This document shows, in pieces, positions 22,047 through 38,279 of a stretch of DNA of 64,000 nucleotides (positions are counted from its first letter, which is position 1; each line of letters opens with the position of its first letter). The position numbers were made by a program, and so were the translations under genes. The stretch spans positions 248,001 to 312,000 of the forward strand of contig NZ_KB907928.1 of NCBI RefSeq assembly GCF_000382285.1, read 5' to 3'. The notes below the pieces were generated by a model. That model was not told where the DNA came from. It saw nothing but the letters and a program-made list of their open reading frames with translations, and made no database searches. This stretch comes from Solimonas variicoloris DSM 15731 (GTDB lineage Bacteria; Pseudomonadota; Gammaproteobacteria; Nevskiales; Nevskiaceae).

Positions 22047-23057
22047 CTACTCGACGCGGAAGCGCACGACGCCGATCAGCTGGTCGCTCTGCGTGACCAC
22101 GCGTACCTCCCAGCGGCCGCGCGGATCGGGCGGGAACGCGGTCTTGTGCGTCCAGGTCCGGTAGCCGGATTCGCGGCTGCCACGGATCTCGATCGGAATG
22201 CTGTCGATCAGCCGGCCTTCGTGCCACCACTGATGGACGATGCGTTCCTCGACGCCGCGCGGTGCGTGGATCGGCGTCCACACGTAGAGGCCGCCGTCAC
22301 GCAGCGCGTCGGCGCCGAGGCGTTCGACGCTGGGGCCGGCGCTGCGCCGCTCGACGTCGAGCGTCTGCGTGGCGTGCGCGTCGTAGACGCGCAGCGTCGA
22401 CGGCGGGATCGCGAAGCGCAGCGCGCTGAGCGTGCCGGCGAGCAGCAGCGCGCCGGCGAGCGCCGCCGGCCAGCGCAGCCAGCGCCCGCACGGCAGCGCC
22501 GCGGCGAAGGCCGGCAGCGACAGCAGTGCGGCGGCGCCGATCGCCAGCCACAGGCTGGTCGCGGTGGTGATCTGCCACAGCATCGGCGCCGCCGTCAGCA
22601 CGGTCGTGAAGCCGGCCGCGGCATGAAAGCTCCACAGCAAGGGCCGGCTGACGACGACGCGGCCGAAGTACAGCGGGTCGATCATCGACACCAGCGAGAA
22701 GGCGGCGAGCAGCAGCACGAACAGCGGCTGCGTGCTGGTCCAGGTGGTCGTTGCCAGGAAGAACGGCAGCGTGAAGAAGAAGGATTCCTGATGCAGCCCC
22801 TGCAGCAGGTAGCGCAGCAGCGCCGGCGAATAGCGCAGCCAGCGACCGCGTTCGGCGAAGCGCATCCAGTACGGCTCGCTCAGCGCCGCCAGCCATGACA
22901 GCGGCAGCAGGATCACCAGCGTCTGCGCGACTTTCTCCTGGCGCTGGATCAGCAGCAGGCTGGCGACGCCGGCAAGGAAGCTGCCGAGCGCGACGAGATG
23001 CTTGTAGCGCGCCCACAGTGCGGCGAGCCGCGTGCGGGCGTCGAGGCGGCCGTTCAT
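22047..23057 (-). CDS. DUF5924/DUF2914 membrane protein
   Basis: The 336-aa protein starts at MNGRLDARTR. Its start codon overlaps the stop of the LuxR gene in an ATGA, so translation is probably coupled. The first 220 residues hold about seven hydrophobic segments (for example FLAGVASLLLIQ, PLFVLLLAAFSLVSMI); the last 110 residues form a soluble DUF2914 domain (VHQWWHEGRLIDSIPIEIRG, YRTWTHKT, GRWEVRVVT). The function of the family is unknown. Confidence 0.85.
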   Translation of the reverse strand: MNGRLDARTRLAALWARYKHLVALGSFLAGVASLLLIQRQEKVAQTLVILLPLSWLAALSEPYWMRFAERGRWLRYSPALLRYLLQGLHQESFFFTLPFFLATTTWTSTQPLFVLLLAAFSLVSMIDPLYFGRVVVSRPLLWSFHAAAGFTTVLTAAPMLWQITTATSLWLAIGAAALLSLPAFAAALPCGRWLRWPAALAGALLLAGTLSALRFAIPPSTLRVYDAHATQTLDVERRSAGPSVERLGADALRDGGLYVWTPIHAPRGVEERIVHQWWHEGRLIDSIPIEIRGSRESGYRTWTHKTAFPPDPRGRWEVRVVTQSDQLIGVVRFRVE

Positions 23058-24046
23058 GGGTCCTGCGTCGGCGCCGCCTGCGGGTGCACCAGATTGGCCA
23101 GCTCGGTGCGGCTGTAGACGCCGAGCTTGCGGTAGACGCGGTACAGGTGATTGGCGACCGTCGACGGCGCCACGCCGATCTTCTTCGCCGCCTGCTTGAA
23201 CGACAGGCCCTGCGCGACGCAGTAGACGATCTCGCGCTCGCGTGCGGTCAGGCGGTCGAGCGGTCCGGCCGGCCACATGATGATCAGGTAGAGATCGCTG
23301 AGTCGCTCGCAGCGCACCATCAGGTCCGCGTACGGCGCGATCTCGCCGGGCGCCGGCAGCGCGAACGGCAGGCGTTGCGGTTCGCGGTTCGGCAGGCGCT
23401 CGTCGAGCAGGTCGAGGAAGCGCGGCTGCGCCTCGTGGAAAATGCCGGCGCCGTCGACCACCGCGCCGGCGGCGCCCGGCGGACGATCCGCGTGCGTGCG
23501 CGCCAGATGCAGGAAGAACGAATGCGAGGCGGCGTTGAACAGGTGATAGATGACGCGCTTCTGGCGCTGCCGGTCGACGTCGCTGAACGGCGCGTCGCGG
23601 TCGCGCCGGTACAGCGTCAGCAGCGAATACAGGCCGCTGCGCCGATCGAGATGGCCGGTCGACAGGATGCGGTGGATGCCGTACGGCGCGAAGGTGCTCG
23701 CGTACAGCTCGGAGGCGAAGAACTCGGCGTCCGGGAACACGTCGCGCATGTCGACCGGCGTGTCGAGGTTCTGCAGGATCTCGGCGATGATCGGGTTGAT
23801 CGCCGTGGTCGACTGCAGCTGCCGCGGAAATTCCACCGGCAGGCCGTGCACGGTGACGGTATGAAAGCGCATCTGCGAGACGCTGCCGCTGCCCCACAGC
23901 GCCCCGTCGCAGGGCACGACGCGTGCGAGCTGCGACAAGGCCCACTCGCGGAATTGACCGGCCGGTACCTGCAGGCCGGAACGGTAAGCGCGGGCGATCA
24001 GTCGATCGACCGGATCGATGGCGTCGACGGGGGAGGGCTTTTGCAT
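23054..24046 (-). CDS. LuxR-type transcriptional regulator
   Basis: The 330-aa protein has an uncharacterised N-terminal sensory region (about 1-255, possibly GAF/PAS-like) and a C-terminal LuxR helix-turn-helix (LTAREREIVYCVAQGLSFKQ, then GVAPSTVANHLYRVYRKLGV). There is no receiver domain and no clear acyl-homoserine-lactone-binding signature, so it is not an obvious quorum sensor. It is co-transcribed with the DUF2914 membrane protein through a 4-bp overlap. A 9-bp inverted repeat lies 75 bp upstream. Confidence 0.85.
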   Translation of the reverse strand: MQKPSPVDAIDPVDRLIARAYRSGLQVPAGQFREWALSQLARVVPCDGALWGSGSVSQMRFHTVTVHGLPVEFPRQLQSTTAINPIIAEILQNLDTPVDMRDVFPDAEFFASELYASTFAPYGIHRILSTGHLDRRSGLYSLLTLYRRDRDAPFSDVDRQRQKRVIYHLFNAASHSFFLHLARTHADRPPGAAGAVVDGAGIFHEAQPRFLDLLDERLPNREPQRLPFALPAPGEIAPYADLMVRCERLSDLYLIIMWPAGPLDRLTAREREIVYCVAQGLSFKQAAKKIGVAPSTVANHLYRVYRKLGVYSRTELANLVHPQAAPTQDP

Positions 24047-29617: not shown

Positions 29618-30916
29618 TCAGGGCCCGGCCGGCGCGGCGGCCGGATAGTTGTTGCCGCCCGAACCGTGGCCGTCGAGTTCGCGGCGCAGATGGGCGACGT
29701 CGAGTTCCTTTTCCCAGCGCGACACGACGATGGTGGCGACGCCGTTGCCGATGATGTTGGTGATCGCGCGCGCCTCGCTCATGAAGCGGTCGATGCCGAG
29801 GATCAGCGCCAGACCGGCCACCGGCACCGTCGGCACCACGGCCAGCGTCGCCGCCAGCGTGATGAAGCCGGCGCCGGTGACGCCGGAGGCGCCCTTCGAG
29901 GTCAGCATCGCCACCGCCAGCAGCGTGATCTCCTGCGTCAGCGTCAGGTCGACGTTGAGCGCCTGGGCGACGAAGATCGCCGCCATCGTCAGATAGATGT
30001 TGGTGCCGTCGAGATTGAACGAGTAGCCGCTCGGCACGACCAGGCCGACGACGGCCTTCGGGCAGCCGAGCTTCTCGAGCTTCTGCATCAGCGGCACCAG
30101 CGCCGATTCCGACGACGAGGTGCCGAGCACCAGCAGCAGCTCCTCGCGGATGTAGCGCAGGAACTTGAGGATCGAGAAACCGGTGAGGCGGGCGATCGTG
30201 CCGAGCACGATCAGCACGAACAGCGCGCAGGTCAGATAGAAGCTGCCCATCAGCTTCAGCAGCGGGCCAAGGCTGTCGAGGCCGTACTTGCCGATCGTGA
30301 ACGCCATCGCGCCGCCGGCGCCGAGCGGCGCCAGCTTCATGACCATCGCGATCATGCGGAAGAAGGCCTGCGACAGCGAGTCGAGCACGACGACGACCGG
30401 CTTGGCCTTCTCGCCGATGTGCATCAGCGCGAAGCCGAACATCAGCGCCAGCAGCAGCACCTGCAGCAGATCGCCGTTGCCGGTGAAGGCGTCGACGAAG
30501 GTCTTCGGGATGATGTGCAGCAGGAAGGCGACGGTCGACTGCTCGTGCGCGGCCTGCGCGTACTTGGCGACGGCGCCGGCATCGAGCGTGGCCGGATCGA
30601 CGTCGAAGCCGTGGCCGGGCTTGAGCGTGTTGGCGACGATCAGGCCGATGACCAGCGCCACCGACGACACCACTTCGAAGTAGAGGATCGCCTTGGCGCC
30701 GACGCGGCCGACCTTCTTGACGTCGGCGACGCCGGCGACGCCGAGCACGACGGTCAGGAAGATCACCGGCGCGATCAGCATCTTGACCAGCGCGATGAAG
30801 GCATCGCCGAGCGGCTTGAGCTGGACCGCGACATCGGGCGCGAAATGGCCGAGCAGGCCGCCGGCGACGATCGCCGCCAGCACCAGCAGGTAGAAACGAG
30901 AGGCTTTCGAGCTCAT
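29618..30916 (-). CDS. dctA: C4-dicarboxylate:cation symporter DctA
   Basis: The 432-aa transporter of the DAACS (glutamate/dicarboxylate symporter) family imports succinate, fumarate and malate. The start is at [12 protein letters not shown]. Signatures are [21 protein letters not shown], the hairpin motif [37 protein letters not shown], and [20 protein letters not shown]. It is divergent from a hybrid kinase gene whose sensor domain resembles DctB, which makes it the obvious target of that system. Confidence 0.96.
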
Positions 30917-30982
30917 GTCGGCGGCGTTCCTCGGCGCGCTTGCAGAAGTCCGGAGCATGTCAGCCCGGCGCCGGCCTGCCTA

Positions 30983-30998
30983 TAACACCTTCGCGCTA
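30983..30998. promoter_or_regulatory. Candidate NarL-type site (7-2-7) between dctA and the hybrid kinase
   Basis: TAACACC-TT-CGCGCTA: the left heptamer is identical to that of the perfect repeat at 38264-38279; the right heptamer keeps 4 of 7 positions. It lies 66 bp before the dctA start and 40 bp before the kinase start. Confidence 0.4.
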
Positions 30999-31038
30999 CG
31001 CCGCCGGTCCGCGGCCGGGCAGGCCCTAGAATGCGGCG

Positions 31039-33723
31039 ATGGGCATCGGCAGGCGAGCGGGACGGTGGCGGGCGCGGCTGCGCGCGATGCGCTCGCGCGC
31101 CGTCCTCGGCCTGATCGCGCTCGGCGCCGGCGGCACTTTGCTGGCGGCGTTCGCCGCCGGGCAGCTGGCGACGCAGCGCGCGCTGCACCAGGACGGCGCC
31201 GAGGCCCGCGAACAGCTCGGCCTGTACGCCGACCCGCTGCAGCGCTACATCGACCGCTACCGCACGCTGCCGGCGGTGCTCGCGCTCGATCCCGAGCTGC
31301 GCGCCGCGCTGGCGGCGCCGGTCGACGCGGCCGCGCAGGCCCGTCTCAACGCGCGCCTCGAAGAAGTCAACGGCGTGACGCGCTCATCGACGCTGACGCT
31401 GCTCGACCGCCGCGGCATCAGCGTCGCCGCCAGCAACTGGCGCGAGCCGGCGAGCAACGTCGGCCACGACTACGCGTTCCGCCCGTATTTCCAGCGCGCC
31501 GCGGCGCAGGGCAGCGGCCGTTTCTACGGCGTCGGCGCGACCACCAACGTGCCGGGCTACTTCCTGTCCGAGGCGATCCGCGCCGACGGCGGCGGCCTGC
31601 TCGGCGTGATCGTCATCAAGCTCGATCTGCAGGAGCTGGAGGCGCAGTGGGCGGCGGCGCGCGACACGGTGCTGGTCAGCGACGAGCACGGCGTGGTGAT
31701 CCTCGCCAACCGTCCGCACTGGCGCTATCGCGAGCTGCGCCCGCTGGCCGCCGCCGAGGCGCAGGAGATCGCGCGTACGCGCCAGTACGCCGGCCGCGCG
31801 CTGGAGCCGCTGCGCATCGGCGCGCAGGACTCGCTTGGCGACGACGGCCGCCGCGTGCGGCTCGACGATCCGGCCCGGCCCGGCGCGGGCCGCGAGCTGC
31901 TCTGGCAGACGCTGCCGCTGCCCGGCGAGACCTGGACGCTGCACCTGCTGCGCGATCCGGCGCCGGCCCTCGGCGCCGGCCGCGTCGCCGCGCTGGCCGC
32001 CGCCGGCGGCTGGCTGGCGCTGCTGTTCCTGGCCCTGTTCGCGCAGGGCCGCGTGCGCCTCGCGCGCCTGCGCAGGCGCAGCCGCGAGGAGCTGGAGCAG
32101 ATGGTCAAGCAGCACGCCGCGGCGCTGCGCACCGCGCAGGACAGCGTGGTCGAGGCGGCGCGCCGCGCGGCGCTCGGCCAGAGCGCCAGCCTGGAGCACC
32201 TGCCGCAGGGCGTCAGCGTGGTCGACGCCGAGCTGCGTCTGGTCGCCTGGAACCGGCGCTACGTCGAAATCTTCCGCTACCCGCCCGAGCTGATGCAGGT
32301 CGGCCGTCCGATCGAGGATCTGTTCCGCCACAACGCGCGGCGCGGCCTGCTGGTCGCCGGCGGCAACGAGGAGGAGGCGATCCGCCGCCGTCTCGATCAC
32401 CTGCGCGCCGGCACCGCCTATCTGCACGAGCGCGAGCGTCCGGACGGCTCGGTCATCGAGATTCGCGGCAATCCGCTGCCGGGCGGCGGCTTCGTCACCA
32501 GCTACGCCGACATCACCCAGTACAAGAACGCCGCGCGCGATCTGCGCACGCTGGCCGGCACGCTGGAGCGCCGCATCGAGGCGCGCACCCAGGACCTCGA
32601 ACTGGCCAAGGGCGAGGCCGAGCGCGCCAACCGCTACAAGACGCGTTTCGTCGCTGCCGCCGTGCACGACCTGCTGCAGCCGCTCAATGCCGCGCGCATG
32701 TTCGTCTCGGCGCTGCGTGGGCGCGGCGCCGACGCCGAGTCGCGCGCGCTGCTCGACAGCATCGACGGTGCGCTGGCCGCGCAGGACGCGATCCTCGGCG
32801 GCCTGCTCGACATCTCGCGGCTCGAATCCGGCGCGCTCGAAGTGCGGCGCCGCGACGTCGCGCTCGGCCCGCTGCTCGGCGCGCTGGCGCGCGAGTTCGG
32901 CGTGCTGGCGCAGGCGCGCGGCCTGACGCTGCGCGCGGTGCCGACGCGCGCCGTCGTGCACACCGATCCGGACCTGCTGCGCCGCATCGTGCAGAACTTC
33001 CTGTCGAACGCGATCCGCTACACGCCGGCCGGACGCATCCTGCTCGGCGCGCGCCGCGCCGGCGGCGCCGTGCGCATCGAGGTCTGGGATACCGGCATCG
33101 GCATTCCGGAGGCGCAGCGCGCGGCGATCTTCGAGGAGTTCCGCCGCCTCGACACCGGGCGCAACGCGCAGGACCGCGGCGCCGGCCTGGGCCTGGCGAT
33201 CGTCGAGCGCGTCGCGCGCCTGCTCGGCCATCCGGTCGGTCTGCGCTCCTGGCCGGGCCGCGGCAGCGTGTTCTCGGTGACGGTGCCGCGCGGCAGCGTC
33301 GCGCAGCTTGCCGCCGCCGAGGCGGCGCCGGGCGCCGGCGACGATTCGCCGCTGCACGGCCGGCATCTCTGGTGTCTCGACGACGATCCGGCGGTGCGCG
33401 CGGCGACGCGCGCGCTGCTGCAGGGCTGGGGCTGCACGGTGACGCTCGCGGCCGGCGGCGACGAGGCCCTGGCCCAGGCCGCGCCGGCGACGGCGCCGGA
33501 TCTGCTGCTGCTCGACTACCGGCTCGGCGACACGGTCGGCCCCGACGTGCTGCCGGCCCTGTTCGCGCGCTGGCAGCGCGAACCGCCGGTGATCGTGGTG
33601 TCGGCCGAGCGCGAGGCCGCGCAGGCGGCGGCACGCGCCGGCGGTTGGAGCTTTCTGGCCAAGCCGATCCGCCCGGCGGCGCTACGCGCGCTCGTCAGCC
33701 GGCTGCTCGTCGCCGGCGCCTGA
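31039..33723 (+). CDS. Hybrid sensor histidine kinase with DctB-like periplasmic sensor, PAS, HisKA, HATPase and receiver domains
   Basis: The 894-aa inner-membrane protein has a first transmembrane helix (about 20-42), a periplasmic domain (43-312), a second helix (about 315-337), a coiled coil, a PAS domain (about 375-495, GVSVVDAELRLVAWNRRYVE), HisKA with phospho-acceptor His543 (VHDLLQPLNAARMF), HATPase (N box NFLSNAIRYT, DTGIGIPE, GAGLGLAIVERV) and a C-terminal receiver with Asp826 (LLLLDYRLGD). The periplasmic domain carries the DctB pattern: YRTLPAVLALDPELRA, ASNWREPASNVGHDYAFRPY and GYFLSEAIR. This suggests sensing of C4-dicarboxylates. Its 3' end overlaps the convergent response-regulator gene by 42 bp. 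The start codon has only a weak ribosome-binding site; Met17 is an alternative. Confidence 0.92.
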   Translation: MGIGRRAGRWRARLRAMRSRAVLGLIALGAGGTLLAAFAAGQLATQRALHQDGAEAREQLGLYADPLQRYIDRYRTLPAVLALDPELRAALAAPVDAAAQARLNARLEEVNGVTRSSTLTLLDRRGISVAASNWREPASNVGHDYAFRPYFQRAAAQGSGRFYGVGATTNVPGYFLSEAIRADGGGLLGVIVIKLDLQELEAQWAAARDTVLVSDEHGVVILANRPHWRYRELRPLAAAEAQEIARTRQYAGRALEPLRIGAQDSLGDDGRRVRLDDPARPGAGRELLWQTLPLPGETWTLHLLRDPAPALGAGRVAALAAAGGWLALLFLALFAQGRVRLARLRRRSREELEQMVKQHAAALRTAQDSVVEAARRAALGQSASLEHLPQGVSVVDAELRLVAWNRRYVEIFRYPPELMQVGRPIEDLFRHNARRGLLVAGGNEEEAIRRRLDHLRAGTAYLHERERPDGSVIEIRGNPLPGGGFVTSYADITQYKNAARDLRTLAGTLERRIEARTQDLELAKGEAERANRYKTRFVAAAVHDLLQPLNAARMFVSALRGRGADAESRALLDSIDGALAAQDAILGGLLDISRLESGALEVRRRDVALGPLLGALAREFGVLAQARGLTLRAVPTRAVVHTDPDLLRRIVQNFLSNAIRYTPAGRILLGARRAGGAVRIEVWDTGIGIPEAQRAAIFEEFRRLDTGRNAQDRGAGLGLAIVERVARLLGHPVGLRSWPGRGSVFSVTVPRGSVAQLAAAEAAPGAGDDSPLHGRHLWCLDDDPAVRAATRALLQGWGCTVTLAAGGDEALAQAAPATAPDLLLLDYRLGDTVGPDVLPALFARWQREPPVIVVSAEREAAQAAARAGGWSFLAKPIRPAALRALVSRLLVAGA

Positions 33724-34368
33724 GCCGCCGCTTTCGCGTTCCGGCGGCGGGTCCGGCTCCAGTGCCTTGACCAGCAGCGCCGCCTGCGTGCGGCTGTGGC
33801 AGTCGAGCTTGCGCAGGATCGCGGTGACGTGGACCTTCACGGTGTTCTCGGCCAGACCCAGCTCATAGGCGATCTGCTTGTTGAGCAGGCCGTCGGCCAG
33901 GCACATCAGCACGCGCACCTGCTGCGGCGTCAGCTGCGCGAGGCGCGCGGCGAGGCGGGCGTCGTCCTCGCTCTTCTCGGCGGCCAGCGGCGGGAACCAG
34001 ACGCCGCCGTCGAGCACGGTGCGCACCGCTTCCAGCATGCGCCCGACCGGCGCCGACTTCGGAATGAAGCCGGCGGCGCCGAACTGCTGGGCGCGGCGGA
34101 TCGTGCGCGGGTGGTCGTTCGAGGAGATGACGATCACCGGCACCTCCGGCCGCTCGCTGCGCAGGAAGATCAGCGACGAGAAGCCGCGCGCGCCCGGCAT
34201 GTGCAGATCGAGCAGCACCAGATCGAGCTCGGCCTGCGCGTGCACGGCGTCCTCCAGCGTGCGCAGGCTCGACGCTTCGAGCGGCGCGAGCGCGCCGGTG
34301 ATCTCGCGCAGCGCATGCGCGACGGCGGAGCGGAACAGCGGGTGGTCGTCGGCGATGACGATCTTCAT
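33682..34368 (-). CDS. NarL/FixJ-family response regulator
   Basis: The 228-aa protein has an N-terminal receiver (acidic pocket ADDHP, phospho-acceptor Asp54 in LVLLDLHMPGA, Lys in GFIPKSA) and a C-terminal LuxR-type helix-turn-helix (LTPQQVRVLMCLADGLLNKQ, LGLAENTVKVHVTAILRKLD). Being convergent with and overlapping the hybrid kinase, it is the likely phosphotransfer partner. The C-terminal 20 residues (Pro/Gly/Glu-rich) lie in the overlap. It is the last gene of a minus-strand run with the hydrolase, porin and lipoprotein genes, 83 bp after the last. Confidence 0.93.
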   Translation of the reverse strand: MKIVIADDHPLFRSAVAHALREITGALAPLEASSLRTLEDAVHAQAELDLVLLDLHMPGARGFSSLIFLRSERPEVPVIVISSNDHPRTIRRAQQFGAAGFIPKSAPVGRMLEAVRTVLDGGVWFPPLAAEKSEDDARLAARLAQLTPQQVRVLMCLADGLLNKQIAYELGLAENTVKVHVTAILRKLDCHSRTQAALLVKALEPDPPPERESGGSGAGDEQPADERA

Positions 34369-34451: not shown

Positions 34452-35561
34452 TCAGCGGCGCAGGCCCAGCGTCAGCGCCGCGCCGCTGCCGTCGGCCGGC
34501 ACGAAGCCGTAGACGCCGCTGCCGTACAGCAGCCAGCCGGCCGGCGCGCCGCTGGCCTGCACGACGCCGGCGACCGGCGTGTCGTAGGCCAGCGTCGCGC
34601 TGCCGCTGCCGTCGCTGAACGTGCTGTCGCTCCAGCTCGCGCTGCCGCTGGCGCCGTCGCTGTCGAGGCTCGCGTAGTCGCCGTCGGCGCTGCCGGCGGC
34701 GAGCGCCGCCTGCGGCGCGTAGAGACGCAGGCCGACTTCGCTCGCCGAGGTGCGCAGCAGCTGCAGCGGCAGCGCCGCGCCGTCGACCAGGCCGATCACC
34801 ATCGAGCCGGCCAGCGTGCCGCCGCTGGTGCTGGCGCCGCCGGCGGGGTCGGTGGCGTAGAGATCGAAGGCGCCGCGTGTGGCGTTGTAGTTCAGATAGC
34901 CCTTGGCGGTGTTCGCGCAGCCGGTGTCGTAGCTCATGAAGCCGCCGTTGGCGGTGTCGACGCAGAGCTGGAAGGTGCCGGCGTTGCGGATCCGGCCGGC
35001 GCCGCCGTAGGGCGTGTCGCTGGCGCCGCTGCGCGTCACGCCGATGACGTCGTAGATCGCCGCGACCGGGTTGAACACGGTCGGCGTGTCGGCATTGCTG
35101 AAGCTCGTCGCGAACGCCAGCAGCGGCGTCGCCGCCGTGCCCTGCGGGGCCGCGATGCCGCCGAGCAGCACGCCGCCGGCGCCGATCGTGAAGCGCGCGC
35201 CGTTCTCGGCGCTTTCGTAGGTGCAGCCGTCGACCGCGACCAGCGTGCCGCTGCGCTGCGTGCCGGCGCTGCGCTGCAGGCTGGCGTCGACGGTGATGGT
35301 GTAGGCGAGCGTCGCCGGGTCGAGCGCGACGCTCAGCTCCTCGCCGAGCGCATCGCCGCCCTTGTAGGTGGTGGCCGCGGCCGGCAGCGCGGCGCAGACG
35401 CCCGGGTCGGGCGTGCCGCCGCCGGTCGTTTCGCCGCCGGTGCTGCCGCCGTCGCTGCCGGCCGGGCCGTCGCGCTCGATGCAGCCGTGCAGGCCGAGGC
35501 AGAGGCCGGCGAGCGCGGCGATCGGCAGCAGGCGGGTCCGCAGGGGGTTCTTGTCCATCAT
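34452..35561 (-). CDS. Predicted lipoprotein, 369 aa, unknown function
   Basis: The start is at MMDKNPLRTRLL after a GAGGAG site; the frame is open upstream but that is a shadow of the porin gene. The signal ends in a lipobox LGLHGC, followed by a Gly/Ser/Thr-rich linker (GGSTGGETTGGGTPD) and a domain rich in short beta-strands with several Cys residues. No family is recognised. It starts 23 bp after the porin gene, so the porin and lipoprotein are co-transcribed and both lie in the cell envelope. Confidence 0.75.
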   Translation of the reverse strand: MMDKNPLRTRLLPIAALAGLCLGLHGCIERDGPAGSDGGSTGGETTGGGTPDPGVCAALPAAATTYKGGDALGEELSVALDPATLAYTITVDASLQRSAGTQRSGTLVAVDGCTYESAENGARFTIGAGGVLLGGIAAPQGTAATPLLAFATSFSNADTPTVFNPVAAIYDVIGVTRSGASDTPYGGAGRIRNAGTFQLCVDTANGGFMSYDTGCANTAKGYLNYNATRGAFDLYATDPAGGASTSGGTLAGSMVIGLVDGAALPLQLLRTSASEVGLRLYAPQAALAAGSADGDYASLDSDGASGSASWSDSTFSDGSGSATLAYDTPVAGVVQASGAPAGWLLYGSGVYGFVPADGSGAALTLGLRR

Positions 35562-35584: not shown

Positions 35585-37072
35585 TCACCAGACGACCTGC
35601 GCGCGCACGCCGATCGATTGGCCGGAATCCGGCCCCTTGTAGTCGCCGACGCGGTTGTCGGTGCTCCAGTCGACGTAGTCGAACATCAGGCGCGACCAGT
35701 CGTTGAGATACCAGTTGACGCCGATCGTGCTGCCGCGGCCGTTGCCGCCCTTGGGCAGATCGCGGAAGTCGTAGCGGTCGAAGCGCGCGGCCAGCTCCCA
35801 GGCGCCCCAGCCGCCGGAGGTCACCGGGTTCAGCACCTTGGTGCCGGCCCAGATGCCGGAGCGGCGCGAGAAGCCGGGCTTCTCGCCGGTCAGCAGCCAG
35901 CCGGCCGAGACCGAGGTGGCGACGCGCTCGCTGACGTCGGTGCTCGCCGAATCGATGGTGCGCTTGGTGTATTCGCCGAAGGTCCAGAAGCTGCGCCACA
36001 CGCCGCCGAGTTCGTAGCCGTAGGCCTCGTCCTGGGTCGGGCTGGCGATCGAGCTGGCCGAGACGCGCAGGTTGTCGTTGAAGTCCTGGCCGATGCGCGG
36101 CGTGTTGTTGATCGAGGTGACGTCGTCGGCGAGCTTTTCGTACCAGTACCAGCTGCCGACGTGCACGAAGCCCTGCGCGCCCTTGAGCGGGTTCCAGTGG
36201 GCGCGCACGGCGTACATGATCGAATCGCTGTCGGTGCCGGTGTTGTCGAGATCGTCGCCGGTGATGCTGGCGCCGAGGTGCCAGCCGTCGCCGTAGAGCT
36301 TCACGAAACCGCCGACGCCGTAGTAGCCGTTGACGCCCTGGCCGACCGAGGCGACCGCGTTGCGCTCCATGAACGGCTGCCGCGACAGCGTGCCGGAGCC
36401 GTCGATGCTTCGGTCCTTGAGACGATTGCCGAGCGTGAACGTCGCCGGGATGCCGAGCAGGCGCGTGTCGTAGGCGATCCAGGCGTCCTTGACCGAAGTC
36501 GCCTGGTCGGAGAAGTCGACGTCGATCTTGTAGTCGAGCGCGCCCATCGAGCCTTCGGCGCCGAGGCGCAGGTCGCGCGCCTCGGTGCCGCTGATGTTGC
36601 GCGCGGCGTAGGCCGAGCCGTCGGTATGCGAGAAGTCGAGCAGCACGCGGCCGCGCGGATGGAAGCTGAAGAAGCCGTCGGCGCTGCGGAACTCGGGGCC
36701 GCCGTCGGTCCAGCGCACGTTGCCGCCGCCGCTGACGCCGCCGGCGGCGAGCTGCGCGAGCTGCGCCTGCAGCGCGTCGAGCTGGGTCTGCTGGGTGTCG
36801 GCGATCGCCGCGTCGATCTGCGCCTGCGTGCTCGCGGCCTGCGCCGCCGGTGCATCAGCACCTGGCGCTGCAGCGCCGGCGGTCGCGGCGCCGTGCGCCT
36901 GGGCTTCGACGGCGGCGAGCCGCGCTTCGAGCTGCTGGATCTGTTCGGCCTGCTGCCGGACCAGCCGGAGCAGTTCGGCGTTGCTGACGTCGGCGGCCTG
37001 CGCCGGCAGCGTGCACGCCAGCAGCGTGCCGCCGATCGTCGCGGCCAGCGCGGTCTTGCGAAAGGGAATCAT
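35585..37072 (-). CDS. OprP-like outer-membrane porin with N-terminal coiled coil
   Basis: The 495-aa protein starts at MIPFRKTALAA. After the signal peptide (to PAQAADV) comes a coiled coil (LLRLVRQQAEQIQQLEARLA), an Ala-rich stretch, a second helix, and the beta-barrel (FSFHPRGRVLLDFSH, LRLGAEGSMGALDYKIDVDF, GGWGAWELAARFDRYD, ending VRAQVVW). This is the plan of OprP/OprO-type porins. It belongs to the operon with a secreted hydrolase upstream (44-bp gap) and a lipoprotein downstream. The solute is unknown; a product of the hydrolase is a fair guess. Confidence 0.9.
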   Translation of the reverse strand: MIPFRKTALAATIGGTLLACTLPAQAADVSNAELLRLVRQQAEQIQQLEARLAAVEAQAHGAATAGAAAPGADAPAAQAASTQAQIDAAIADTQQTQLDALQAQLAQLAAGGVSGGGNVRWTDGGPEFRSADGFFSFHPRGRVLLDFSHTDGSAYAARNISGTEARDLRLGAEGSMGALDYKIDVDFSDQATSVKDAWIAYDTRLLGIPATFTLGNRLKDRSIDGSGTLSRQPFMERNAVASVGQGVNGYYGVGGFVKLYGDGWHLGASITGDDLDNTGTDSDSIMYAVRAHWNPLKGAQGFVHVGSWYWYEKLADDVTSINNTPRIGQDFNDNLRVSASSIASPTQDEAYGYELGGVWRSFWTFGEYTKRTIDSASTDVSERVATSVSAGWLLTGEKPGFSRRSGIWAGTKVLNPVTSGGWGAWELAARFDRYDFRDLPKGGNGRGSTIGVNWYLNDWSRLMFDYVDWSTDNRVGDYKGPDSGQSIGVRAQVVW

Positions 37073-37116: not shown

Positions 37117-38130
37117 TCACTCGTCGCGCGGCGCACTGCGGTCGTCGTTGTGCTGCGCCCTGGCCGGCGCAGGCAGGGGCACGGCGTAGCCGGTGCCGGA
37201 CATGAAGCCGTGGCTGCGCGCCCAGGTCGCGAACAGGCGCGGCCATTGCGCGACCAGCGTGCTCGGCGCGCCGAGCCCCCAGCCGTGGCCGCCGGCTTCG
37301 AACACGTGCAGCTCGGCCGGCACTGATGCCGCGTGCAGCGCGTTGAACATCGCCAGGCTGTGGCCGACGTCGGCGATCGGATCGTCGGCGGCGTGGGCGA
37401 GGAAGGTCGGCGGCGTGTCGTGGCTGACGTGCATCTCGGCCGAGTACGCCTCGACGGCGTCCTTCTGCGTCGACAGCTCGCGCTTGCTGCGCGTGGTGTC
37501 GAGCGGTGCCTGCAGCGAGATCACCGGGAAGATCAGCGCCGCGAAGTCGGGCCGCGCCGAAACCTGGTCGATCGCATCGAGCGGTTCATGGAAGGCGTCG
37601 GCGTAGCGCGTCTCGGTGATCGCCGCGAGGTGGCCGCCGGCCGACATGCCGAGCACGCCGATCTGCCGCGGATCGATGCCGAGTTCGCCGGCGCGGCTGC
37701 GCAGGATGCGCATCGCGCGCTGCGCATCGGCGAACGGCGCGCTGGCCGGCCAGCCGTCGGCGGGCAGACGGTAATAGAGCACCGCGGCGGTGACGCCGAG
37801 CGCCGCCAGCCACTTCGCGGTCGGCACCGCTTCGTTGCCGATCTGGATGCGGAAGTACCCGCCGCCGCCGGCGATCAGCACCGCCGTGCCGTTCGGTGTG
37901 GCCGGGCGGTAGAGCTCCAGGCGCGGCGTGCGGATGTTGGAAATGGCGCCGGTGCCCTTGCCGTCGCGGCCGACGCGCTCGGGGCCGCGCACCGGCGCAT
38001 CGGCGAGCACCGCGTCCGGCCACAGCGGGATGAGCGTCGGCGCGGCGCCGGCTGCGGCGACGGCCGGGCCGGCGCCGCACGCGAGCACGAGGATCGCGAA
38101 CGCGCGGCAGGCACGGGAAATCGAAGCCAT
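37117..38130 (-). CDS. Secreted alpha/beta hydrolase (BD-FAE / acetylxylan-esterase-like)
   Basis: The 337-aa protein starts at MASISRACRAF after a strong GGAGGAG site and has a signal peptide ending GPAVAAAG. The mature N-terminus, LIPLWPDAVLADAP followed by PRLELYRPATPNGTAVLIAG, and the oxyanion region GGGGYFRI match the esterase/lipase group often annotated as xylan or sugar-acetyl esterase. The nucleophile is Ser in GMSAGGHLAA; the Asp in HAADDPIADV and the His in GGHGWGLG complete the triad. A carbohydrate-ester substrate is inferred from the family. Confidence 0.88.
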   Translation of the reverse strand: MASISRACRAFAILVLACGAGPAVAAAGAAPTLIPLWPDAVLADAPVRGPERVGRDGKGTGAISNIRTPRLELYRPATPNGTAVLIAGGGGYFRIQIGNEAVPTAKWLAALGVTAAVLYYRLPADGWPASAPFADAQRAMRILRSRAGELGIDPRQIGVLGMSAGGHLAAITETRYADAFHEPLDAIDQVSARPDFAALIFPVISLQAPLDTTRSKRELSTQKDAVEAYSAEMHVSHDTPPTFLAHAADDPIADVGHSLAMFNALHAASVPAELHVFEAGGHGWGLGAPSTLVAQWPRLFATWARSHGFMSGTGYAVPLPAPARAQHNDDRSAPRDE

Positions 38131-38263
38131 GGTGACGCTCCTCCTGCGCCGCGGACGGCGCGCTTGTGGTTCTTGTCGCCGCCGCGGGGCGGGGGCCGCG
38201 CGTGGCGCGCAGCGCGCCCGATCGGCATGCGGCTTTGTAACGCGCGCGTCGCTGCCGACCCAA

Positions 38264-38279
38264 TAACACCTTGGTGTTA
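38264..38279. promoter_or_regulatory. Perfect 7-2-7 inverted repeat upstream of the hydrolase operon
   Basis: TAACACC-TT-GGTGTTA, about 134 bp before the hydrolase start codon. Two heptamers with a 2-bp spacer is the arrangement known for NarL-class DNA binding. The NarL/FixJ regulator gene is the last gene of the same minus-strand run. Confidence 0.5.

Follow-up and report, generated by a model that had tools for sequence, protein, structure and literature searches.

Uptake of C4-dicarboxylates is the textbook case of control by the DctB/DctD pair and sigma-54. How is the transporter gene dctA controlled where a DctB-like sensor is carried by the signalling core of another family? This question is raised by a 64,000-nucleotide (nt) stretch of the genome of Solimonas variicoloris DSM 15731 (hereafter the window, numbered from its first base), in which dctA is followed by the gene of a sensor hybrid histidine kinase and by that of a NarL-type response regulator. 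Our analysis indicates that kinase and regulator probably form a C4-dicarboxylate-responsive two-component system, in which a DctB-type sensor is joined to a hybrid core of the NahK/ErcS/CrbS type and works with a regulator of the ErdR/CrbR type. The parts are known, while their combination and the predicted regulon are new. No report of a NahK/CrbS-type kinase with a DctB sensor or of ErdR-type control of dctA was recognised in the literature searched, which is not proof of absence.

Organization of the locus

The first-pass annotation of this region described a kinase gene divergent from dctA and arranged tail to tail with a NarL-type regulator gene, and the coordinates bear this out. The dctA gene (29618–30916, minus strand) encodes a 432-residue C4-dicarboxylate transporter (NF002461, 657.1 bits; cut-off 513) and is the predicted target of the system. 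Judged from the sequence, its start codon is most likely at 30916, so that the left edge of the feature outlined in that annotation is the dctA start codon itself. An intergenic region of 122 nt (30917–31038) lies between this start codon and the divergent one of the kinase gene (31039–33723, plus strand), whose open reading frame overlaps that of the regulator gene (33682–34368, minus strand) by 42 nt at the 3′ ends. Among the best 80 of 560 stretches, the closest named relative is L042 from Solimonas flava DSM 18980, whose kinase is 96% identical (our G and L numbers denote genomes and loci).

The kinase has 894 residues, and the annotated domain order of PAS, HisKA, HATPase and receiver was recovered in full by Pfam and from the sequence. 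The periplasmic sensor (residues 43–312; 31165–31974) is followed by PAS_7 (residues 385–499; 32191–32535; 140.1 bits, cut-off 27), HisKA (residues 534–598; 32638–32832) with the phospho-acceptor His543 inside HDLLQPL, HATPase_c (residues 643–751; 32965–33291) with an N box at residues 653–658 and G boxes at 684–689 and 714–720, and a receiver (Response_reg, residues 779–886; 33373–33696) with Asp826.

The periplasmic sensor

Two hydrophobic segments (residues ∼21–39 and ∼316–334) bracket the sensor, which matches Pfam dCache_1 over residues 54–240 (50.4 bits; cut-off 45). The three DctB-like blocks noted earlier in the periplasmic domain were all located in the kinase sequence, namely ASNW (residues 131–134), NVGHDYAFRPYF (140–151) and GYFLSEA (173–179). 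In a phmmer search against solved structures, the sensor matched DctB of Sinorhizobium (2zbb) with an E-value of 7.4e-41 and DctB of Vibrio (3by9) with one of 3.2e-30; this likeness is therefore not due to chance. With a profile of 16 sensor sequences, the DctB match rises to E 3.2e-53.

A comparison of residues 43–312 with the DctB structure, which had been proposed as a check, places the DctB entries alone at the top. The AlphaFold2 (AF2) model of the sensor has a mean predicted local distance difference test (pLDDT) score of 90.8 and a predicted template modelling (pTM) score of 0.83. With this model as the Foldseek query, the five top matches are DctB chains (E 4.5e-24 to 1.0e-21) and the next match lies at 5.7e-10; the Z-scores are 28.2–31.2 for DctB structures, compared to 18.9 for the next best. 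By both sequence and model, the sensor is thus a DctB-type dCache domain. Arg148 and Lys194 are invariant in all 16 aligned sensors and align with Arg152 and Lys197 of DctB, which we take to be residues that bind the carboxylate of the ligand. The offset between the two numberings is consistent with how residues are numbered in entry 3e4o.

Kinase core and partner regulator

From the PAS domain onward, the kinase is not DctB-like at the sequence level and is nearest to hybrid kinases of the NahK/ErcS family. The best NCBIfam model for the core, from HisKA to the receiver, is NF041832 of this family (398.4 bits, E 3e-119; curated cut-off 400), on which six related kinases score between 352.7 and 551.7 bits. 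The kinase has no Pfam match to SSF, i.e. no SLC5 symporter input as in CrbS/MxtR. The regulator (228 residues, phospho-acceptor Asp54) consists of Response_reg and GerE and has no sigma-54 activation domain according to Pfam; its best NCBIfam model is ErdR (NF041830, 233.4 bits; cut-off 390), followed by NarL at 105.5 bits. A core nearest to NahK/ErcS, together with a regulator nearest to ErdR, points to a sensor swap onto another kind of kinase and regulator. The earlier reading of a re-wired dicarboxylate system with a hybrid kinase and a NarL-type output is supported in both respects, with the amendment that the kinase is not DctB plus a receiver, since its core is NahK/ErcS-like and the regulator ErdR-like. 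Such a regulator gene also directly follows other kinase genes of the wider family in convergent orientation (e.g. L057–L062, L065 and L080), and the tail-to-tail layout therefore probably came with the core.

The relationships of the cores were examined in a tree of 84 sequences (85 before a truncated second copy of the G008 kinase was removed), from which 14 near-copies and rows with short matches were left out. L170, L172 and L137, which the block pattern had missed, were labelled as DctB-sensor kinases by hand on the basis of tblastn sensor matches. The 27 DctB-sensor kinases require two changes of sensor label, with G008 nested among them. A single clade of all 27 cores is not rejected by the approximately unbiased (AU) test (p 0.203), so that G008 may represent either a sensor replacement or a sister group. 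Of four long kinases near the DctB-sensor clade, L066 has an SSF match and L061–L063 have none; it is therefore the family models, the regulator and the DNA motif described below that justify calling the core CrbS-like, and not a named CrbS among the sequences of the tree. L186 (L186:5539–8475) and L169 (G008) carry a different sensor, of dCache and HAMP, on the same kind of PAS_7-containing core, and their regulator ortholog is divergent from dctA.

A conserved motif upstream of dctA

An unguided motif search was applied to 19 stretches upstream of dctA, obtained from 23 by leaving out the near-copies L042, L127, L128 and L131. The set includes L050, with no regulator seen nearby, and L169, the G008 locus with the other sensor. 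The search returned TAgTACCAAtGgGTTAT at 22.5 bits, compared to 10.9–11.5 bits in six dinucleotide-shuffled sets. When the matrix was built without the window, the best match in the 64 kb was at 38263–38279 (26.4) and the second at 30982–30998 (18.0), with the next two matches at the same two places on the opposite strand. The latter is the predicted regulator-binding site before dctA (minus strand, 65 nt from the dctA start; score 17.98) and is conserved in relatives. The former precedes a second gene cluster (minus strand; see below) and has perfect 7-nt palindrome arms (38264–38270 and 38273–38279). In the whole genome, only these two places lie within three mismatches of the palindrome TAACACCAAGGTGTTAT, and the reversed pattern finds none; the search is blind to sites further away than that.

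The motif tracks the presence of the kinase and regulator. Among genomes of the order to which S. variicoloris belongs, the strict pattern is found in 16 of 19 with the regulator and in 6 of 66 others (Fisher 7e-10), compared to 1/19 and 6/66 for the reversed pattern as a control (Fisher 1.0). The three regulator-bearing exceptions (G034, G035 and G056) have sites that fall outside the strict pattern. With leave-one-out matrices, all 19 non-redundant dctA promoters of loci with the kinase and/or the regulator score between 15.0 and 31.3, whereas the 11 promoters from DctA-bearing genomes of the order with neither protein all score between −9.0 and 3.6. The motif also occurs outside the training set, in the dctA promoters of L134 and G009 (23.6 in the latter) and in five of five Dyella/Rhodanobacter loci, where it lies directly upstream of the divergent neighbour of the kinase (18.1–26.1). 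A chance find is ruled out by the six shuffles, the reversed pattern and the dctA promoters without kinase or regulator. The view of dctA as a likely target of the pair is thus strengthened, and the 17-bp palindrome-like element, described here for the first time, is likely to be the site of the regulator, as far as comparison of genomes can tell. The first-pass annotation had placed kgtP and maeB beside this system; both are indeed neighbours, but the scan of the 64-kb window shows no site before either. A LuxR-type regulator gene near maeB (23054–24046) encodes a C-terminal GerE domain without a receiver match, and relatives occur on the same side in L042, L044 and L056.

A few occurrences elsewhere differ from this picture. 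In a Nevskia metagenome-assembled genome, the dctA site stands in tandem with two more partial copies (L043:1299–1343; TAGCTACAAAGTCT, TAGCTCCAAGGTCT, then TAGCACCAAGGTGTTAT). The degenerate locus L177 (G043:C21) retains only the C-terminal part of dctA, with one site near it and no ortholog of the kinase or regulator in the genome. The malic enzyme gene maeB of G050 is directly preceded by a site (L125:10171–10187), and in that genome the regulon may therefore extend to maeB. The genes beside lone motif matches in G039, G047, G024 and G003 gave no clear picture.

The motif resembles the ACTU element of Pseudomonas fluorescens, an imperfect inverted repeat of 17 bp that CrbR requires and that occupies positions −52 to −36 of acs (PMC5715377). 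Both motifs are 17 bp long, and the acs site TACTACCATCGTCGAAT and the dctA site TACTACCATCCGGCTAT, which G020 and G015 have in common, are identical over their first 10 bases. With our matrix, the ACTU sites of acs, the actP-linked PFLU1813 and PFLU5314 score 8.0, 9.2 and 12.2, respectively. Most of the others score poorly (see below), and the two motifs are therefore kin and not the same.

A −10-like element follows the site after 22–23 nt; among 27 related promoters, position +24 is an A in 81% and position +27 in 70%. The candidate element of dctA (30954–30959, minus strand) lies 22 nt after the site, a placement that is conserved across promoters despite a match of only 3/6. The corresponding candidate of the second cluster, TACAAA (38234–38239, minus strand), lies 23 nt after its site and matches at 4/6. 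To judge from these sequences, the spacing fits the same layout as that of CrbR/ACTU promoters. Upstream of the window's dctA, the best sigma-54-like match has 6/10 fixed bases, the level of shuffled sequences (6.1 on average), and a sigma-54 promoter was rejected here. The mean for the set of dctA upstream stretches is 6.5, and matches of 9/10 are found in L044 and L171 (2/23 stretches).

A second predicted target

The palindrome at 38263–38279 precedes four minus-strand genes separated by gaps of 44, 23 and 83 nt. They encode an alpha/beta hydrolase of the BD-FAE/Abhydrolase_3 type (337 residues, 37117–38130; assigned by domain scan, signal peptide judged by eye), an outer-membrane porin (Porin_O_P, 495 residues, 35585–37072), a lipoprotein-like protein without a Pfam match (369 residues, 34452–35561; lipobox judged by eye) and the regulator itself. 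This layout suggests that the four genes are co-transcribed. A site before the hydrolase gene recurs in L044, L045, L133, L134 and L169, and in the three scanned loci of genus g6 (G013, G015 and G028) a site lies between the regulator gene and a porin gene of the Alginate_exp family. The predicted regulon therefore repeatedly includes an outer-membrane porin, but not always one of the same family. Relatives of the lipoprotein-like protein stand beside a porin in L042, L044, L045, L133, L134 (two copies) and L169. G008, with sites before dctA, an esterase gene and an Alginate_exp porin gene, offers a natural sensor difference at one regulon.

Distribution in related bacteria

Of 85 genomes of the order, 18 have the kinase; the regulator ortholog occurs in the same 18 and in G008, 19 in all (Fisher 1.6e-17). 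Sensor matches at E 1e-3 were found in 21 genomes, of which the weak G063, G031 and G052 were dropped, and the ortholog cut-off of at least 63% identity was chosen after seeing the matches, with the next one at 56%. DctA of at least 60% identity accompanies the kinase in 16 of the 18 genomes, G034 and G035 having DctA-like genes of 48–49%; it also occurs in 12 genomes without the kinase. Full-length relatives of the kinase were also found in Luteimonas, Luteibacter, Dyella, Rhodanobacter and Coralloluteibacterium among the best 80 of 560 stretches. A wider sample of 369 genomes drawn from the class gave 35 with a sensor match at 1e-8, some of them in shorter open frames, such as the 603-residue frame of G245 with HisKA and HATPase only.

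The search for the same arrangement in relatives, suggested with the first-pass annotation, shows that it recurs: of 31 non-redundant kinase loci, 29 have the kinase and regulator genes in convergent orientation, and 23 have dctA within the fetched stretch. In these counts, L047 ends before the position of the regulator, L050 lacks the regulator, and L129 and L137 are short contigs.

Proposed mechanism and alternatives

By analogy with DctB, a periplasmic C4-dicarboxylate would bind to the membrane-distal half of the dCache domain. The signal would pass through the second transmembrane segment and the PAS domain and lead to phosphorylation of His543, from which the phosphoryl group would move, probably directly, to Asp54 of the regulator; the receiver of the kinase (Asp826) might act as a brake or phosphate sink. 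All nine HPt matches in this genome lie inside open frames of at least 610 residues, which favours direct transfer from His543 to Asp54. No small HPt protein was found in the genome with the Pfam model, which could miss a divergent one. The phosphorylated regulator is predicted to bind the 17-bp imperfect palindrome located ∼22–23 nt upstream of the −10-like element, a site defined by genome comparison, and would activate dctA from a sigma-70-type promoter without sigma-54, and likewise the esterase-porin-lipoprotein-regulator cluster. As an outcome, an outer-membrane porin and an inner-membrane symporter would be induced jointly, with positive feedback on the regulator.

More broadly, we lean, with some reserve, towards a distinct sigma-54-independent system of C4-dicarboxylate control in Nevskiaceae, Lysobacteraceae and Rhodanobacteraceae, which would have arisen when a DctB sensor was fused, in a single event, to a CrbS-like core. 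Its two-promoter regulon would couple porin and symporter and feed back on the regulator, as outlined above; the regulator and its promoters would form a fixed unit and the sensor a replaceable one, as in G008. Such a regulon is testable in an environmental bacterium, and it gives a hint of function for the hybrid kinases and regulators of Solimonas, Nevskia, Luteimonas, Dyella and their relatives.

Several observations weigh against this system. The kinase core falls 1.6 bits below the curated cut-off of NF041832, and the regulator lies far below that of ErdR (233.4 against 390). The dctA site of the window is the less regular of the two, with no inverted repeat of at least 6 nt, and its −10-like element is weak. 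In the 1.03 Mb of 65 loci with other kinases of the family, there are 10 matches scoring at least 14, one of them at 24.0. The kinase of G008 has a different dCache-HAMP sensor, while the regulator ortholog and the dctA site are present. The position of DctB Thr171, presumably a ligand-binding one, is occupied by Ala, Val or Ile in these sensors, and the ligand preference may therefore differ from that of DctB. The last point would suit a DctB-like fold that senses another carboxylic acid (alpha-ketoglutarate, an acidic amino acid, acetate or an acid released by the esterase), with dctA as one of its uptake targets, a possibility that we take seriously and judge unlikely on balance. It is in keeping with kgtP adjoining dctA and with the five Dyella/Rhodanobacter loci, where a porin-like gene replaces dctA as the neighbour of the kinase (Porin_4 in L049, L051, L052 and L055; only a sub-threshold Porin_1 match in L054), another point against the proposed system. 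AauS and MifS of P. aeruginosa, from systems for acidic amino acids and alpha-ketoglutarate, are DctB-like sensors grouped with DctB (PMC8694187). However, both charged residues taken to bind the carboxylate are invariant, dctA is found near the kinase at 23/31 loci, and among solved structures DctB is by far the closest.

The output side leaves room for other explanations too. HPt relays are typical of hybrid kinases, and NahK signals to HptB in P. aeruginosa (PMC12997753); the kinase could likewise use its receiver to relay to a separate HPt protein and from there to another output, its convergent regulator being served by another kinase. We find this improbable, given that the regulator accompanies the kinase in 18/18 genomes of the order, that the two genes are convergent at 29/31 loci and that all nine HPt matches of the genome are in large open frames. 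Even less probable is that the 17-bp motif is the site of another regulator, its link to the ErdR-like one reflecting only shared ancestry of the locus. Here the points on the other side are that the compared genomes are related, so that presences and absences are not independent events in support of the link between regulator and site, and that the 18.6 kb fetched for L050 contain the kinase gene, dctA and the site but no regulator gene. In addition, among 20 distinct 17-base ACTU sites tabulated in PMC5715377, three score 8.0–12.2, one scores 0.0 and 16 are negative with our matrix, the negative ones including PFLU0110 and PFLU5625, genes tested in that article. All of these also count against the proposed system. 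Yet the motif agrees with the CrbR site in length, placement and part of its sequence (PMC5715377), the Dyella/Rhodanobacter loci outside the training set retain site and regulator without dctA, G008 retains both despite another sensor, and dctA promoters of genomes without the pair are also without the site. Finally, ordinary DctB/DctD-type control of dctA through sigma-54 is hardly credible, although the sensor is DctB-type, the sigma-54 activation domain is matched 15 times in the genome, and two of 23 upstream stretches have good consensus matches. The regulator has a GerE helix-turn-helix and no such activation domain, the sensor has just one match in this genome at E 1e-3, and the consensus matches are at 6/10 for the window and close to shuffles for the set (6.5 compared to 6.1).

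Comparison with known systems

Kinases of the NahK/ErcS′ (PedS1) type are nearest to the present kinase in the core from HisKA to the receiver, which scores just below the NF041832 cut-off. The NahK/ErcS′ protein that was scanned (L092) has only PAS domains before this core, unlike the dCache sensor found here. PedS1 is described as a soluble kinase, and NahK as being modulated by the nitric oxide sensor NosP (PMC12997753).

The existence of DctS/DctR means that C4-dicarboxylate control outside DctB/DctD is not unprecedented. DctS of Rhodobacter capsulatus is not known to be a hybrid kinase. In that organism, DctS/DctR is a C4-dicarboxylate two-component system that controls dctPQM (PMC4268860), and one genome paper places a DctS/DctR pair in the FixJ subfamily (PMC6461280). 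Its target is thus dctPQM and not dctA as predicted here.

The CrbS/CrbR (MxtR/ErdR) acetate system resembles the present one in having a hybrid kinase with a receiver and a LuxR-type regulator. The site of CrbR is an imperfect inverted repeat of 17 bp that directly precedes a sigma-70 promoter (PMC5715377), much like the predicted site here in length and placement, and a CrbS/R pair of Sinorhizobium is also convergently transcribed (PMC9100948). The two systems differ in input and target: in CrbS, which controls acs/actP, the input is an SLC5 symporter-STAC module, whereas the present kinase has a DctB-type dCache domain in that role, with dctA and the porin cluster as predicted targets.

In DctB/DctD, DctB has a plain kinase core without a receiver, and DctD is a sigma-54 activator. 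The system proposed here differs from this pair in its C-terminal receiver, NahK/ErcS-like hybrid core, NarL-type partner and sigma-70-type promoter layout. It shares with the rhizobial pair a periplasmic sensor of the same family and dctA as the (predicted) target (PMC4077058). The partner regulator, the DNA site and the promoter layout resemble those that accompany the hybrid core, and the locus may serve as a natural domain swap, suited to asking which part of a two-component system determines its input and which part its target.

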